DNA of 34,935 nucleotides from Nitrososphaerota archaeon (GTDB lineage Archaea; Thermoproteota; Nitrososphaeria; Nitrososphaerales; Nitrosopumilaceae): the NCBI GenBank assembly GCA_021325595.1, contig JAJPGX010000030.1:79824-114758 (forward strand), given 5' to 3'. Position 1 is the first letter of the stretch, and each line of letters starts with the position of its first letter. Of the stretch, positions 7,273-13,352 are shown one piece after another. The notes below the pieces were generated by a model that ran no database searches, was not told where the DNA came from, and was given only the letters and a program-made list of their open reading frames with translations. Made by a program: the position numbers and the translations under genes.

Positions 7273-8298
7273 TCAAGTCACTACTTTTTGTAGTACGTTT
7301 TTGTCTTTTGCAATTTTGACTTCTCGCGCAATTCTTCTACCCATACTCATAGGTTCATTATACATCAATGAGGAATAAGGTGAGCCACTCACATACAGAT
7401 TTGTCCCGGCTACTATCCTTGCAGAAAACTCAAAGCTGGTAAATTTTCCATTGCTGTCATATACCCCTTCAAGACAAAACGGTCCTGTCATACCCGGCGC
7501 AACAAGTCTTTTTGCGGCTTCAACAAATTTCTCACCCATGGAATAAACCTCGTCTAGTAGAGATTCTCTCAAGACAAGCGGGCTATTTCCTATCACATTA
7601 AATGATGGGATAAGATCGACTGCAATTTGTTGCGGAGCCGGAATTCTACCTAGTCCATCAATATCTGATTCATATCTCCTATCCACCCCAAAAAATTCTA
7701 AATCCTCATTTGCGCCAGAATAAAAATACTGTAAATATGCAGAAACCCCAAAAGCGTATTCTTGTATGTATAGATCATTATCACCATCAATGATTCCTTG
7801 TCTTATAAGCTCGTCTCTTTTTTTGTTGTAATCGCTTTCACTTGTAGCAAGAAAATATCCTTTTCCGCCTGCAGCGCCGTGCCTTTTTGCAATTACAAGT
7901 CCTTTGATTTCATTTGGATTTGGGATAGATTTTGGAACCGGCAAGTGCGATTCTAACATTAGCTTTTCTTTCATTTTTCTGTCAGATTCCCATCTTAGAA
8001 TCCATTTGTTTCCAAAGATTGGATTTTTGATTGATTCAATCTCATTAGAGCTCATTTGAGAAATAAGAGTGCCATGTGGAACAATTATAGAATCATTTTC
8101 TTGTAATATCTTTGCACATCGTTGATCTAATATCTCCCTGAAAGAATCTACTAGTATTATTTCATCAATAAATCTGAATCTTTTGTAAAGTCTTTCGCGC
8201 TTTTTCTCACACACTAGGACTGTCTTAAAACCTTCATCTTTTGCTCCTTTGAGCACTTGTAACGCACAGTGTGAACCTAATGTAGCAATTGAGGTCAT
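7273..8298 (-). CDS. purP: 5-formaminoimidazole-4-carboxamide ribonucleotide synthetase
   Basis: PurP is the ATP-grasp ligase of archaeal purine synthesis, making FAICAR from AICAR, formate and ATP in place of the folate-dependent PurH transformylase. The 341-residue length fits the family. Visible family features are an N-terminal GSHCALQVLKGAKDEGF, the block FGNKWILRWESDRKMKEKLM, an ATP-binding loop RHGAAGGKGYF, and the C-terminal EFSARIVAGTN. It lies between a convergent ZIP gene (10 bp away) and a small unknown gene 27 bp upstream on the same strand, with which it may be co-transcribed. Confidence 0.95.
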   Translation of the reverse strand: MTSIATLGSHCALQVLKGAKDEGFKTVLVCEKKRERLYKRFRFIDEIILVDSFREILDQRCAKILQENDSIIVPHGTLISQMSSNEIESIKNPIFGNKWILRWESDRKMKEKLMLESHLPVPKSIPNPNEIKGLVIAKRHGAAGGKGYFLATSESDYNKKRDELIRQGIIDGDNDLYIQEYAFGVSAYLQYFYSGANEDLEFFGVDRRYESDIDGLGRIPAPQQIAVDLIPSFNVIGNSPLVLRESLLDEVYSMGEKFVEAAKRLVAPGMTGPFCLEGVYDSNGKFTSFEFSARIVAGTNLYVSGSPYSSLMYNEPMSMGRRIAREVKIAKDKNVLQKVVT

Positions 8299-8325
8299 TT
8301 ACATCACTTTTCTATGGACAGGTAC

Positions 8326-8538
8326 TTATGAAAGTTCCATATGGTGGTTTGAAATAAAAGAAAAAACGTCATCAATAAGATCCATAGTGAGATGTTTTTT
8401 GTATTCTTGAGGCATATTCTTTAGAATAAAGTCAATTACTGATTGGTTCATCCTCTGATGCTCTTCTATCTTCTCAGAATAGAGTGATATGAGATGAGAT
8501 GTTATTATAGACGTTTTTTCTTTATCTGTTAGGGTCAT
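8326..8538 (-). CDS. Small helical protein of unknown function
   Basis: This encodes 70 residues, acidic and predicted mostly alpha-helical, with no membrane segment or Cys motif. It ends in a short His-containing tail (NHHMELS). I do not recognise a family. The ATG start is followed by plausible codon use, and it lies 27 bp upstream of purP on the same strand. That supports a real gene in a purP transcription unit. Confidence 0.6.
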   Translation of the reverse strand: MTLTDKEKTSIITSHLISLYSEKIEEHQRMNQSVIDFILKNMPQEYKKHLTMDLIDDVFSFISNHHMELS

Positions 8539-8694
8539 AACATCCCAATGATATTGTTTTTAATTTAGACCTTTATTTCCTATTCTTTTAGGATCATACG
8601 TGATTTTATTCTAATTAACAAATGACAAGATGTTTGTCTGTCAAAAATATATGTAACATAATTTAATGACACCTATTTATAAAATTCATAGTTA

Positions 8695-8710
8695 TTTCCA
8701 TTTTTGGAAA
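8695..8710. promoter_or_regulatory. Perfect inverted repeat upstream of the pilin-like gene cluster
   Basis: TTTCCA-TTTT-TGGAAA (6-bp arms, 4-nt loop) lies about 30 bp upstream of the putative TATA box at 8739-8747. It could be an operator for the pilin-like genes or just a chance hairpin. Confidence 0.3.
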
Positions 8711-8738
8711 CCTGTCACTTCACTGGAATACATGCTAC

Positions 8739-8747
8739 TATACAATA
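8739..8747 (+). promoter_or_regulatory. Candidate TATA box of the pilin-like gene cluster
   Basis: TATACAATA is centred 29 bp upstream of the ATG at 8772, right for a (nearly) leaderless archaeal transcript. Confidence 0.4.
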
Positions 8748-8771
8748 TATGCATCCTGGTACGATTTTTAG

Positions 8772-9227
8772 ATGAAGTCAAAGGGATTACCTGCTAGACG
8801 TGGATTAGCATCCATTGTCACAAATGCAATTCTTCTTGTATCAGTTGTCCTGATGGGAACAGGAGCTGTAGTATGGGAAAATGACAAACTCTCTGCAGGT
8901 AAACTCGAATTACTTAATGTTTATTCTACAAAAATTGACAAGATTAATGAAAACTTATCGATTGAAAAAATCTGGTTTGGTACTACACCGCAAAAATTTA
9001 TCAATATTACAATGACTAACCAGAGTCCACTAAGTATTGTTGTAAAACAAGTACAAATTTCAACTTCATCTGGTACAGTGACATTTCCTGTTAATAATCA
9101 AATCATCATGTCAGAAAAATCTGCTTCACTGAAACTTAATTATAATTACATTAGTAATATCTCAAATACGGTAGAAATTACTACGTCAAGAAATTCAACA
9201 TTTTCGACCGTAGTGTCAACCCCATGA
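8772..9227 (+). CDS. Archaeal type IV pilin-like protein (class III signal peptide)
   Basis: This encodes 151 residues. The N-terminus MKSKGLPARRG-LASIVTN is a class III signal peptide: a basic segment ending in RRG, then a hydrophobic helix ending GTGAVVW. A prepilin peptidase would cut after the glycine and leave the helix as the filament core. A beta-rich, Ser/Thr/Asn-rich domain follows. The first ~100 residues match the next gene's N-terminal part in layout (same helix motif, then SIEKIWFGTTPQKF versus TLEKFWYNTPSQKL), so the two are paralogues. It is probably a subunit of a surface filament. No pilus ATPase or prepilin peptidase gene is in the window. Confidence 0.8.
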   Translation: MKSKGLPARRGLASIVTNAILLVSVVLMGTGAVVWENDKLSAGKLELLNVYSTKIDKINENLSIEKIWFGTTPQKFINITMTNQSPLSIVVKQVQISTSSGTVTFPVNNQIIMSEKSASLKLNYNYISNISNTVEITTSRNSTFSTVVSTP

Positions 9228-9280
9228 AAATAATACAAATTAATTTTGTCTACGTAGTGTTATTTCTAGTTTGTAATACC

Positions 9281-10717
9281 ATGCGAAAAATAATCTTTAT
9301 TGGACGCAGAAGGGGCATAATTAATGTAGTAAGCGGTGCAATTTTGCTTTCGGGTGTAACACTAATTGGCACCGGTGCTGTTGTATGGACACAAACAACT
9401 GTTAATACTCGTGAACATGACACTGGGGTTCACTACACCTCAGTAATGAACAAAATTAAAGAATCATTGACATTGGAAAAATTTTGGTACAATACACCGT
9501 CTCAGAAACTTAATCTGGTATTGAAAAATACTGCTGATATAGGTCTTAATGTGACAGAAATAGAAATTCAGGGTTCAAATAATCAAATCATACCTATTGC
9601 TGGCGCTGCTATACTTCCTAATGCGTTTTACACTGCACAGATCAAATATGATTGGCTTGGGGATCCGATTGATATTTTTGTGAAAACAGCACGAGGTTCT
9701 ATCTTCAGAATGCACATAGTTTCACCTACGGATGGGATATTGATTCTCAATAAAGTTTCAGTGCTGGGAAATGGAAATTTTAGTTATGATGGTGATCTTG
9801 GGAAATTTAATGTAACTACTGCAGGATTCACACCAGGTGAGAGTCTTGACGCAAATGGTAATCTTGTCATAACTGGAATCATTCGTGATTTTAATGCAAC
9901 TGGTACACAGGGTGGACATCCAGATTTTGAAAAGCAATGTTGTCCTCCAAGCTATGGTGTTTATACAGGAATAGTTATGCCAACACTTGGCCCTGACAGA
10001 GAACCGGTATATAACAATTACACTACTTCTCCTTGGAATAGTGGTTTTACCAGATTCAATCAATGGTATCATGACACACCTGGCGTTAATGTAAAGCAGA
10101 ATCTGAATATTACATTAATCAGACAAGTTGGTGTAAATCCACCCACGTGGGCATATAACAATGGAAGCTATTTTCCTATCGATAATCAATTATTTTGCAA
10201 ATCTAATCCCACATGTAGTGGTAAAGATGGAAGTGGGAAATGGCATAATTTCCATTTCACATTTGAGGCCCATAGCTCTTTTACATATCAAGGAGGAGAA
10301 AAATTTGTTTTTAGTGGAGATGATGATGTCTGGGTTTTCATTAACAACCGATTAGCATTAGACCTTGGAGGTGTTCACTCAAACCAAACAGCTACTGTTG
10401 ATCTGGACGCGCAATCTTCACAACTGGGTATTACAAAAGGTGGCACTTACAATTTTGATTTCTTTTATGCAGAGCGTCACACAGTTTCATCAGAAATGAA
10501 AATGACCACATCTATAAAACTCAATAAAAATGGATCTGGAAGAACAAGTGCTTTCTTTGTGGATCCTGGAACGTATACTATCAACGAATTAGTTCCAGCT
10601 GGATGGTCACTAACTAATCGTCAATGTGACAATGGATACACTTTGCCAAACTCGACTGAAGTAACAGTAACAGTTCCTAAAGGAGTAACAATATGTACAT
10701 TTACCAATACGAAATAG
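9281..10717 (+). CDS. Pilin-like protein carrying a fibro-slime (PA14-like) adhesin domain
   Basis: This encodes 478 residues from the ATG at 9281; a frame extension to 9224 would put a second hydrophobic stretch before the signal and is unlikely. Residues 1-36 are a class III signal peptide (GRRRG-IINVVSG, helix ending GTGAVVW), and 37-145 are a pilin-like beta domain. Residues 151-183 (LILNKVSVLGNGNFSYDG) and 414-478 (VDPGTYTINELVPAGWSL ... ICTFTNT) look like the two halves of a prealbumin-like/SpaA-type domain. Between them, about 195-412, sits a fibro-slime domain, with VITGIIRDF, HPDFE, EPVY, FNQWYHD and FSGDDDVWVFINNRLALDLG, then FDFFYAERH. Fibro-slime domains occur in bacterial and Dictyostelium extracellular matrix proteins and are thought to bind carbohydrate. 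It is probably a filament-tip or surface adhesin. Confidence 0.85.
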   Translation: MRKIIFIGRRRGIINVVSGAILLSGVTLIGTGAVVWTQTTVNTREHDTGVHYTSVMNKIKESLTLEKFWYNTPSQKLNLVLKNTADIGLNVTEIEIQGSNNQIIPIAGAAILPNAFYTAQIKYDWLGDPIDIFVKTARGSIFRMHIVSPTDGILILNKVSVLGNGNFSYDGDLGKFNVTTAGFTPGESLDANGNLVITGIIRDFNATGTQGGHPDFEKQCCPPSYGVYTGIVMPTLGPDREPVYNNYTTSPWNSGFTRFNQWYHDTPGVNVKQNLNITLIRQVGVNPPTWAYNNGSYFPIDNQLFCKSNPTCSGKDGSGKWHNFHFTFEAHSSFTYQGGEKFVFSGDDDVWVFINNRLALDLGGVHSNQTATVDLDAQSSQLGITKGGTYNFDFFYAERHTVSSEMKMTTSIKLNKNGSGRTSAFFVDPGTYTINELVPAGWSLTNRQCDNGYTLPNSTEVTVTVPKGVTICTFTNTK

Positions 10718-10744
10718 AACTTTACATGAACGGATTGATATTAC

Positions 10745-11947
10745 ATGATCAAAATAAATAATCTGAAAAATAGAAAAGGAATCAGTACCGTTGTAGGCAG
10801 TGTATTTTTCATAATTGTTTTCACTACTGCTGCAGGTTATGTTGTCTATAGCATGAACCAACTTGATAAATTTGGTGAAACTATAATTTCAAAAAGTCAA
10901 GATCTTAGAAATACTCAACAAGAAGAATTCAAAATCACAAGTGTTACAAAAGACAACAATAAATTCAACATAACGATTCAAAATACGGGCCAAATTCCAA
11001 TTAATGTTACTAGGTTGTGGATACAAAATAGAACAGACCCAACATGGCCAATTTCTAAATACACAGTAAATCAAATGGTATCTCCAGGAGAAAGTCTAAG
11101 TAAGATAGGTCAAAATCTGCCAGTTACTGCGTTAGCGACTCAAGCATATGACCTTACTGTTGTAACAGAACGAGGAAACAATGATGAGGTTCTAGTTAAC
11201 TCTGCTAGCGTTAAACCAATCTATATGCAACTTTACGTGTTGCCAGATACCATACAACCCAAATATACAACAACACTTCTTTTTGCAGTAACAAACAACA
11301 TGTCAAGTAATACAGCTTTAACGAATCTTTCACCAAACCCACCCCAAATCACATCATATGGCGCTACTGCTGCATTAGTTTCCGGTCCAGAGCCCTTGCA
11401 ATACAAGTTTCTTGATTCGGGAGATACTGCTTATTTCAAGTGGGTGTATAATATAACAGGAACAACTGGTCAAAAAGTACAATTTCAAACATCACTTCAA
11501 AATGGTTACTTGGGAAACACTGTTTCAAAAAATGTTACTGTAAATGCAATTGTGACCTCTCAACCGACTCATTTCTTAGTAGGTCAATGGGATACTGAAC
11601 GTAGCTTTACGGATATAGGAACATCATTTGTCGATGTATATGCAACTCCTAACTCAAACGGTCACGCCATACAAATTGACACAAATAAATTCTCACAATA
11701 TCAATATCAAATAATTTGGACAAAGGTTGGATCAGGTACTCAGACATGTCAATTGGTAGATGCTGCTAATGGTGCTAACATAATTGCAACCACGGCAAGT
11801 CTTTCCAATGGAATAAACACAGGATCTGATACCGCAATCCCTGCAGGATTGCTAAATTCAATTAAGAATTACAAATGGCAGTGCAAGAGTACAGTTTCAA
11901 GCGATGACCCTACTTTTCTTGCTGCTAGAATATGGCTCAAACCTTAA
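10745..11947 (+). CDS. Large pilin-like surface protein (class III signal peptide)
   Basis: This encodes 400 residues. The N-terminus KNRKG-ISTVVGSVFFIIVFTT is a class III signal peptide with cleavage after RKG. The rest is beta-rich, with many Asn-x-Ser/Thr glycosylation sequons. A middle part (about 150-265) reads like Ig-type beta domains. The C-terminal ~130 residues (from FLVGQWDTERSF to ARIWLKP) form another domain with two cysteines (TCQLV, WQCKS). I do not recognise either domain. It lies 27 bp behind the fibro-slime gene and is the third pilin-like gene in a row. The signal helix differs from the other two (no GTGAVVW), so it is not a close paralogue. Confidence 0.75.
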   Translation: MIKINNLKNRKGISTVVGSVFFIIVFTTAAGYVVYSMNQLDKFGETIISKSQDLRNTQQEEFKITSVTKDNNKFNITIQNTGQIPINVTRLWIQNRTDPTWPISKYTVNQMVSPGESLSKIGQNLPVTALATQAYDLTVVTERGNNDEVLVNSASVKPIYMQLYVLPDTIQPKYTTTLLFAVTNNMSSNTALTNLSPNPPQITSYGATAALVSGPEPLQYKFLDSGDTAYFKWVYNITGTTGQKVQFQTSLQNGYLGNTVSKNVTVNAIVTSQPTHFLVGQWDTERSFTDIGTSFVDVYATPNSNGHAIQIDTNKFSQYQYQIIWTKVGSGTQTCQLVDAANGANIIATTASLSNGINTGSDTAIPAGLLNSIKNYKWQCKSTVSSDDPTFLAARIWLKP

Positions 11948-12041
11948 TAGAATTTAACAAGTTCGATTTTTCATGCTTACTATGATTAAATATCCGATCT
12001 TTTAGCAACATAAATAACACTAGAACATAACTGATGAAAAC

Positions 12042-13352
12042 ATGATAGGAACTGAACTTGGAGACTGGCGTAGGACACATTATTCTACTCAAATTAGTCC
12101 GGCTTTGGAAGGTAATGAAGTCATTGTAATGGGGTGGATCTCAAGCATAAGGGATCATGGTAGTTTGGTATTTGTCATGCTTACCGATAAAGAAGGTGAA
12201 ATCCAGATTACTGCAAAGGCAGGAGCATGCCCTGATGAAATACGTGAGTCATTAGTGAAACTAAAAGAACATTCTACTATTGCAGTAAAAGGAACCATAA
12301 AACCATCCAACAAGGCTCCACACGGTGCAGAAATAATTCCTATTGAATTAAGAATATTTTCTGCTGTCGAAAAAATTGCACCATTTTTACCACAAACAAA
12401 GGAAGTTGCAAATATTGATACCAGACTTGAGATTCGTGCAATTGACCTTCGAAGAAACATATTACAAAATGTATTCAAGATGCGTAACCTTGTTCTAAGA
12501 TCTTTGCGAGATTATTTGTATGAAAATGGATTCGTTGAGGTAAATACACCAAAAATGATTGCAACCGCAACAGAAGGTGGTGCTGCGCTGTTTCCAATAT
12601 TTTATTATAACAAAGAAGCCTTCCTGGCACAAAGTCCTCAGCTTTACAAAGAACAACTGACACTAAGTTTTGAGAAAGTGTTCGAGATTGCACCAATTTT
12701 CAGAGCAGAGCCTTCTAGAACTAATCGACATCTCTCAGAAGCAATTTCAATAGATTTGGAAGAAGCATTTTCTGATTATAATGATATAATGAAACACGTT
12801 GAAAATATAGTGTTCAATTCAATTAATGTTGTAAAACAATATGTAAGTTCAATTGAAAGTACAGATTATATTGTACCAGATACTCCTATTTCAATCCCGC
12901 AATATTCTTACACGGAACTTGTTGAAAAAATGCAAAGCGCTGGTGCAAAGATTGAATGGGGGGATGACTTGTATCCATCACAACTAAAAAAAATAAATCT
13001 CACTGGATTTTATTTTATAAAAGATTGGCCAATGGCACCTAAACCGTTTTATGTAAAAGCAAAAAAAGATAACCCAAAAATTTCAGAATCATTTGATCTT
13101 ATGTTTGGAGATCTTGAGCTTTCATCAGGAAGTACAAGGATTGAAAAAAGATCTGAACTTGAAGAGCGCATGAAAAACAAAGGCTTCAAGCTTGACGCAT
13201 TTGATTATCATTTGAAAGTCTTTGATTATGGAGTTCCTCCTCATGCTGGGTGTGGAATTGGTCTTGAAAGACTAATGATGGCGCTTACAGGAACAGAAAA
13301 CATAAGGGACGCAACATTTTATCCAAGAGACGTAGACAGATTAACCCCATAA
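12042..13352 (+). CDS. aspS: Aspartyl-tRNA synthetase, probably non-discriminating
   Basis: This is a class IIb synthetase of archaeal type, 436 residues. It has an N-terminal OB-fold anticodon-binding domain, then the catalytic domain with motif 2 (FRAEPSRTNRHLSE) and motif 3 (GCGIGLERLMMAL). At the OB-fold position where discriminating archaeal enzymes have Lys (K85 in Thermococcus kodakarensis) this protein has Pro (NKAPHGAEI). The W26-equivalent is Ser. Pro at that site is known from the relaxed enzyme of Methanothermobacter. With gatCAB immediately downstream, it probably charges both tRNA(Asp) and tRNA(Asn) with aspartate. The gap to gatC is 10 bp. TAAATA at 12011-12016 is a candidate TATA box. 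Confidence 0.95.
   Translation: MIGTELGDWRRTHYSTQISPALEGNEVIVMGWISSIRDHGSLVFVMLTDKEGEIQITAKAGACPDEIRESLVKLKEHSTIAVKGTIKPSNKAPHGAEIIPIELRIFSAVEKIAPFLPQTKEVANIDTRLEIRAIDLRRNILQNVFKMRNLVLRSLRDYLYENGFVEVNTPKMIATATEGGAALFPIFYYNKEAFLAQSPQLYKEQLTLSFEKVFEIAPIFRAEPSRTNRHLSEAISIDLEEAFSDYNDIMKHVENIVFNSINVVKQYVSSIESTDYIVPDTPISIPQYSYTELVEKMQSAGAKIEWGDDLYPSQLKKINLTGFYFIKDWPMAPKPFYVKAKKDNPKISESFDLMFGDLELSSGSTRIEKRSELEERMKNKGFKLDAFDYHLKVFDYGVPPHAGCGIGLERLMMALTGTENIRDATFYPRDVDRLTP

Follow-up and report, generated by a model that had tools for sequence, protein, structure and literature searches.

A putative adhesive pilin of ammonia-oxidising archaea with a fibro-slime domain apparently nested in a split SpaA-type domain

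Introduction

Attachment of ammonia-oxidising archaea in soil is poorly known, and what their several type IV pili do is called unresolved in a survey of such pili (PMC7554672). In the window (the whole stretch of DNA analysed here, 34,935 nucleotides), a single gene combines an archaeal pilin N-terminus with a fibro-slime domain, raising the question of how such a head is fixed on its stalk and whether the product serves a pilus at all. The sequence-only reading of this locus had proposed a pilin-anchored adhesin of an ammonia oxidiser with the head inserted in a prealbumin-like domain; the assignment of the host was correct, since its genome encodes an archaeal AmoA (4.4e-106). Here, we addressed whether the pilin stalk, the head and the split domain withstand profile, permutation and structural comparison, and how the gene is placed relative to other pilus genes. 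The most probable interpretation, in our opinion, is a type IV pilus adhesin subunit presenting a Ca2+-dependent sugar-binding PA14 head on an isopeptide-capable split domain.

The gene and its pilin stalk

The gene is an intact open reading frame that follows a small pilin gene, pil1, and the N-terminal part of its product is divided as follows:

8772-9227, plus strand: pil1, small pilin of 151 aa, built from the pilin module that also forms residues 1-149 of the fibro-slime pilin (28% identical)
9281-10717, plus strand: fibro-slime pilin, 478 aa (alternative start at 9224)
9281-9316, plus strand: class III prepilin leader, residues 1-12 (Gly12 invariant in 10 of 10 orthologs)
9317-9388, plus strand: N-terminal pilin helix, residues 13-36 (alignments A1 and A3)
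9389-9727, plus strand: pilin beta-sandwich, residues 37-149 (profile match to 8fk7_A; model strands with pLDDT of about 50-76)

Full-length orthologs number ten, found in the host, in seven congeneric genomes and in two of a second genus of the same ammonia-oxidiser family (51-61% identical). An in-frame ATG located 19 codons upstream of 9281 would extend the product to 497 aa and overlaps the pil1 stop codon (ATGA); since the ortholog from one second-genus genome, Thaumarchaeota isolate TA_20 (L005), also starts with an ATG overlapping the stop of the preceding gene, the true start of the fibro-slime pilin is uncertain, and translational coupling with pil1 via the ATGA overlap is possible.

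The N-terminus reads ...GRRRG followed by IINVVSGAILLSGVTLIGTGAVVW, that is, a class III prepilin leader and a pilin helix. The leader, RRRG/IINVVSGAILL, is conserved in the ten orthologs and has a site of the [RK]G or [RK]A type in front of a hydrophobic helix, while paralogous pilins carry RR[AG] at the equivalent position. A FlaK/PibD-type peptidase would be expected to cut the fibro-slime pilin after RRRG, i.e. after Gly12. Residues 37-149 constitute a pilin module, which also occurs throughout the archaeal family as a separate gene product of about 150 aa. A profile built from 15 sequences of this module (A3) matched PDB chain 8fk7_A, annotated as "Flagellin", over nearly full length with E=0.0013, a value that is weak if taken alone; the whole fibro-slime pilin had no match in PDB by phmmer, and neither this protein nor pil1 matched any named pilin family in NCBIfam. 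Conservation of leader and helix together with this profile match corroborates the proposed pilin stalk.

The fibro-slime/PA14 head

The central part of the protein is occupied by the head:

9860-10522, plus strand: complete fibro-slime/PA14 domain, residues 194-414 (TIGR02148, PA14, alignment to stand-alone proteins, Foldseek)
10319-10324, plus strand: Asp347-Asp348, at the position of the DcisD calcium/sugar site of PA14 lectins (invariant in ten orthologs)

HMM searches, which had been suggested as a check of the fibro-slime assignment, confirmed it with both profiles above their cut-offs: TIGR02148, whose cut-off is 45 bits, scores 122.7 bits over residues 322-414 (E=6.5e-36, model positions 2-90 of 90), and PA14 (PF07691) covers residues 308-417 with 42.4 bits against a cut-off of 24 (E=8.1e-11). 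End-to-end alignment with stand-alone fibro-slime proteins (L006 and L008 among them) sets the limits of the domain at about 194-414, and PA14 as well as SpaA_4 were matched in all ten orthologs. Of two AlphaFold models, produced from alignments of 6 and 4 rows taken from window proteins and related loci, the second has a fibro-slime core with pLDDT of 80-91; its top Foldseek matches are mostly yeast PA14 lectins (Epa1, Epa6, and Flo5), with MpPA14 ranked lower, and their probabilities of 0.84-1.00 are accompanied by low TM-scores, the query model being only moderate.

In PA14 lectins, the Asp-Asp pair of the DcisD motif forms a cis dipeptide holding the Ca2+ ion that contacts the sugar (PMC8092209). 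Asp347-Asp348 align, within a weak match, to the DDG of the PA14 domain in PDB 6qdi, and L028, with Asn in place of Asp347, indicates that this residue varies among fibro-slime proteins at large. By analogy, the head may take carbohydrate through Ca2+ at Asp347-Asp348, attaching cells to polysaccharide surfaces or to other cells. The role of fibro-slime proteins in attaching Fibrobacter to cellulose (PMC4668043, PMC3079729) makes polysaccharide surfaces the first candidate ligands; antibodies to these proteins decreased cellulose adhesion by 62%, as cited in PMC4668043.

Two halves of one SpaA/CnaB-type domain

The segments flanking the head had been read as the first and the second half of one prealbumin-like domain, which matches the SpaA_4 profile:

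9728-9829, plus strand: first half of the SpaA_4/CnaB-type domain, residues 150-183, with Lys158 and Phe167 (excision tests)
9752-9754, plus strand: codon of Lys158, candidate isopeptide lysine (10 of 10 orthologs, 9 of 9 uninterrupted SpaA domains)
10523-10714, plus strand: second half of the SpaA_4/CnaB-type domain, residues 415-478, with Glu436, Cys449, Cys472, and Asn476 (SpaA_4, E=1.9e-8)
10586-10588, plus strand: codon of Glu436, candidate catalytic Glu (10 of 10 orthologs, 9 of 9 uninterrupted SpaA domains)
10706-10708, plus strand: codon of Asn476, candidate partner of Lys158 (10 of 10 orthologs, 9 of 9 uninterrupted SpaA domains)

Scanning of the unspliced protein places SpaA_4 (PF24514; 35.5 bits against a gathering cut-off of 27.3) only C-terminally, at 385-478, where the match overlaps the end of the fibro-slime domain. 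This location, as well as low model confidence in the flanks, would suit an arrangement in which residues 150-183 serve as a linker or contribute one more strand, with residues 415-478 forming a truncated or separate SpaA-like tail. We consider such independence of the flanks highly improbable because of what happens upon excision of the insert. In three orthologs, the C-terminal half alone scores 32.1, 30.3, and 36.0 bits with Pfam SpaA_4 and, joined to the equivalents of residues of about 150-179, it scores 47.4, 47.8, and 47.1 bits, respectively, i.e. the gain is +11 to +17 bits; the C-terminal half covers profile positions 34-107, thus lacking the first strands, and addition of residues 150-184 restores positions 2-107. 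With a model of nine uninterrupted archaeal SpaA domains the score rises from 39.6 for the C-terminal half to 46.6 for both halves, a level reached by 3 of 500 shuffled N-terminal halves (mean 40.3, sd 1.4), and when 80 windows along the protein took the place of the N-terminal half, the one starting at residue 151 scored best. Comparison by hhalign of the ten-ortholog profile with the same nine domains gave 73.3 for both halves against 59.6 for the C-terminal one, and none of 800 column permutations came up to 73.3 (mean 59.8, sd 1.2, maximum 66.9). All seven columns invariant in the uninterrupted domains (K, F, E, C, C, F, and N) are kept: K158 and F167 before the insert and E436, C449, C472, F474, and N476 after it, so that Lys158 and Phe167 fill exactly the two family-invariant positions missing from the C-terminal half. 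The idea of a split domain is therefore borne out at the level of sequence, and assignment of the SpaA match to a C-terminal truncated domain only was rejected by the excision tests.

Structural models give little resolution here: both SpaA halves have pLDDT of about 26-53 in either model, so packing of the two halves in one sandwich is deduced from sequence. On this ground the fibro-slime domain is nested in the SpaA-type one: the pilin domain would run into the first strands of the SpaA/CnaB-type domain, from which the chain would exit to form the complete fibro-slime/PA14 domain and then re-enter for completing the remaining strands. SpaA_4 has been described as a family with predicted Lys-Glu-Asn isopeptide bonds and prevalent disulfides (PMC12617251), and Lys of the first strand, Glu of the middle, and Asn of the last strand correspond to Lys158, Glu436, and Asn476, which we regard as a candidate isopeptide triad. 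Lys158 and Asn476 could form the bond with the assistance of Glu436, a Cys449-Cys472 disulfide being located nearby. Such a bond would tie both stems of the head covalently at its base, whereby the load on a bound head would be shared and the stalk would be made protease-resistant.

Distribution of the architecture

The combination of pilin, split SpaA, and fibro-slime domains was sought in other thaumarchaeal genomes, as had been advised, and is present in nine of them besides the host. Of 250 genomes belonging to the family, 18 have fibro-slime domains, and an even sampling of the phylum (398 genomes) revealed none outside the family of the host. Other fibro-slime proteins of the family (L008, L015-L018, L021, and L023-L028) have fibro-slime domains 39-49% identical; in contrast to the 478-aa fibro-slime pilin, no pilin stalk was found in these other archaeal copies, and most of them reside in long ORFs. 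The latter (L015-L018, L021, L023, L024, L026, and L027) encode about 550-2,000 aa, and several long fibro-slime ORFs of the family adjoin RTX-like GGDGND repeats. Separately, ORFs of 976 and 989 aa matching the pilin N-terminus were noticed at G237:C10:58421-58720 and G235:C35:5042-5353, and these are possibly other large-headed pilins. Phage records gave no match, and viral contigs searched with alignment A1 yielded no relative; the sole viral contig matched by the fibro-slime profile (L085 2650-3663; IMGVR_UViG_3300005577_000804, classed as viral) encodes a fibro-slime protein whose N-terminus is lipoprotein-like.

Genomic context and the pilus machine

The fibro-slime pilin is the middle gene of a three-pilin cassette, a feature overlooked in the sequence-only reading, and its downstream neighbor is the third pilin:

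10745-11947, plus strand: pil3, 400 aa, with UpsA/ArlF/BasA-like N-terminal half (NCBIfam UpsA 8e-9, below the family cut-off)

The order pil1, fibro-slime pilin, pil3 is the same as in the window in 9 of 9 orthologous loci. In all seven relatives with enough flanking sequence for the contig to reach the machine genes (G178, G179, G195, G196, G206, G213, and G237; contigs of G233 and G198 are too short), a type IV pilus locus of Ups/Bas-like kind borders the cassette and includes a T4P ATPase, a TadC-like protein, and other machine genes. Neighbors in the best-covered locus (L088) comprise a MoxR-type AAA ATPase, a VWA protein, a further pilin, T2SSE and T2SSF proteins, a 791-aa Ig-like protein, and a FlaK-type prepilin peptidase; the T2SSE ATPase is FlaI-like (366 bits) and the T2SSF protein is UpsF-like (91.6 bits). 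The pair of MoxR/CbbQ-type AAA ATPase and VWA protein lies within the pilus locus at 7051-9611 of L088 and also at 1176-3646 of L098.

The genome of the host is organized differently: its machine is found on contigs C47 and C10 and the peptidase on C46, apart from the cassette of the window. The cassette beside the host machine consists of pil1 and an 871-aa pil3-like protein (L098, G000:C47, 4906-7518) with a weak LamG match (PF00054, 1.3e-3), and a third one, on C29 (L100, 3812-6193), of pil1 and a 794-aa pil3-like protein matching Laminin_G_2 (PF02210, 2.2e-5). As the host cassette is separate from the machine, which is accompanied by a different cassette, we only infer that the Ups/Bas-like machine would assemble the three cassette pilins together, the fibro-slime pilin probably being a minor or tip component.

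The separate position of the window cassette and the likeness of the assembly genes to Bas (bindosome) components as well as to Ups might also speak for a membrane-anchored surface lectin that has a pilin leader and acts outside any pilus, for example, in bindosome-like sugar capture or S-layer bridging; adjacency to machine genes in seven of seven relatives and the match of the pilin domain to the filament-forming chain 8fk7_A make this quite unlikely. It is unlikely as well that the same split-domain pilin makes up the bulk or the coat of the filament, so that heads would line the whole pilus in a structural or protective role. All three genes of the cassette have pilin N-termini, filaments normally consist of many pilin copies, and the widespread headless pil1 copies could be minor or initiating pilins, all of which would agree with abundance; on the other hand, about 330 aa of head per subunit is bulky, and related cassettes of the same genus comprise only pil1 and pil3, from which it follows that filaments evidently can be built without a head. 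An adhesin subunit of the pilus thus continues to be the reading we prefer.

The cassette of the window lies between purP (7273-8298) and aspS (12042-13352). In G183, G184, and G197, the cassettes harbored by this interval consist of pil1 and pil3 and lack the fibro-slime pilin, and in G179, G181, G203, and G207 the interval contains other genes; it is accordingly variable (window 8298-12042, L134-L140), with pilin cassettes in four and other genes in four of the genomes examined. Beside purP, a 70-aa ORF (8326-8538, minus strand) is kept across the genus with 54-68% identity and has no match in NCBIfam. In the pil3 tree, the window groups with the second genus, away from its own (100/99), while the unrooted fibro-slime tree is undecided and allows vertical descent; as only the first favors lateral transfer of the cassette between genera, we do not claim such transfer. 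These data suggest that the cassettes are modular, with exchange only suspected. A tentative and rather doubtful extension is that pilus heads are exchangeable, one Ups/Bas-like machine serving several mobile cassettes and the isopeptide-locked split domain holding the fibro-slime head. Each cassette would then be composed of pil1, an optional fibro-slime pilin, and a pil3 whose C-terminal head differs from case to case (LamG-like domains, for example) and would relocate between the pilus locus and remote positions, of which the purP-aspS interval is one. If so, exchangeable heads would let lineages switch what their pili stick to, and the isopeptide-locked fibro-slime head would be for type IV pili what tip adhesins are for Gram-positive ones.

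Comparison with known systems

For attachment of ammonia oxidisers in soil, the locus now offers a named subunit, a likely class of carbohydrate ligands, and three residues to mutate. Its machine resembles those of Ups, Bas, the archaellum, and Ups/Bas-related pili of ammonia-oxidising archaea in the FlaI-like ATPase, UpsF-like protein, and FlaK peptidase; fibro-slime/SpaA heads are not described in the sections of PMC7554672 consulted, and MoxR and VWA genes are part of the locus here. With the fibro-slime proteins of Fibrobacter succinogenes (PMC3079729, PMC4668043) it has the TIGR02148 domain in common, while those proteins are bacterial and not described there as pilin-fused or SpaA-nested. 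No archaeal fibro-slime or PA14 pilin was found in the open-licence literature (fibro-slime papers being judged by title). The definition "new kind of surface adhesin" given initially is too strong, since the bacterial RrgA, Spy0125, and RTX adhesins already have an adhesive domain nested within one of the stalk; the archaeal pilin version appears undescribed.

In the RTX adhesins MpIBP, FrhA, and AhLap, heads of PA14, CBM, or peptide-binding type are placed on split domains (PMC10865825, PMC12077191), and the likeness consists in the sideways projection of a ligand-binding domain, including PA14, by a split sandwich domain. The RTX adhesins are of giant size, are exported by type I secretion, and have split domains of the Ig-like kind; the archaeal pilin, of 478 aa, has a split domain of SpaA/CnaB type with a candidate isopeptide triad, and RTX repeats and a giant stalk are absent, the only Pfam matches being PA14, SpaA_4, and SpaA_2. 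RrgA (CnaA-like) and Spy0125/Cpa (CnaB-like) have a large domain inserted between the isopeptide-forming residues (PMC12617251, PMC4282584). With these tip or ancillary pilins of Gram-positive sortase pili, the archaeal protein shares an adhesive domain situated within the isopeptide-type domain of the stalk and the CnaB-like set of Lys, Glu, and Asn. It differs from them in its archaeal type IV pilin anchor, in the PA14/fibro-slime head (theirs being thioester or VWA domains), in having an isopeptide bond that is a candidate deduced from sequence, and in the absence of an LPxTG-like sorting signal, its C-terminus being CTFTNTK. Having neither sortase signal nor RTX repeats, the fibro-slime pilin works like sortase-pilus tip adhesins and RTX adhesins and belongs to neither class. 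The comparison suggests that placing an adhesive domain in an isopeptide-capable stalk domain arose in another class of pilus assembly, apparently independently of Gram-positive bacteria.
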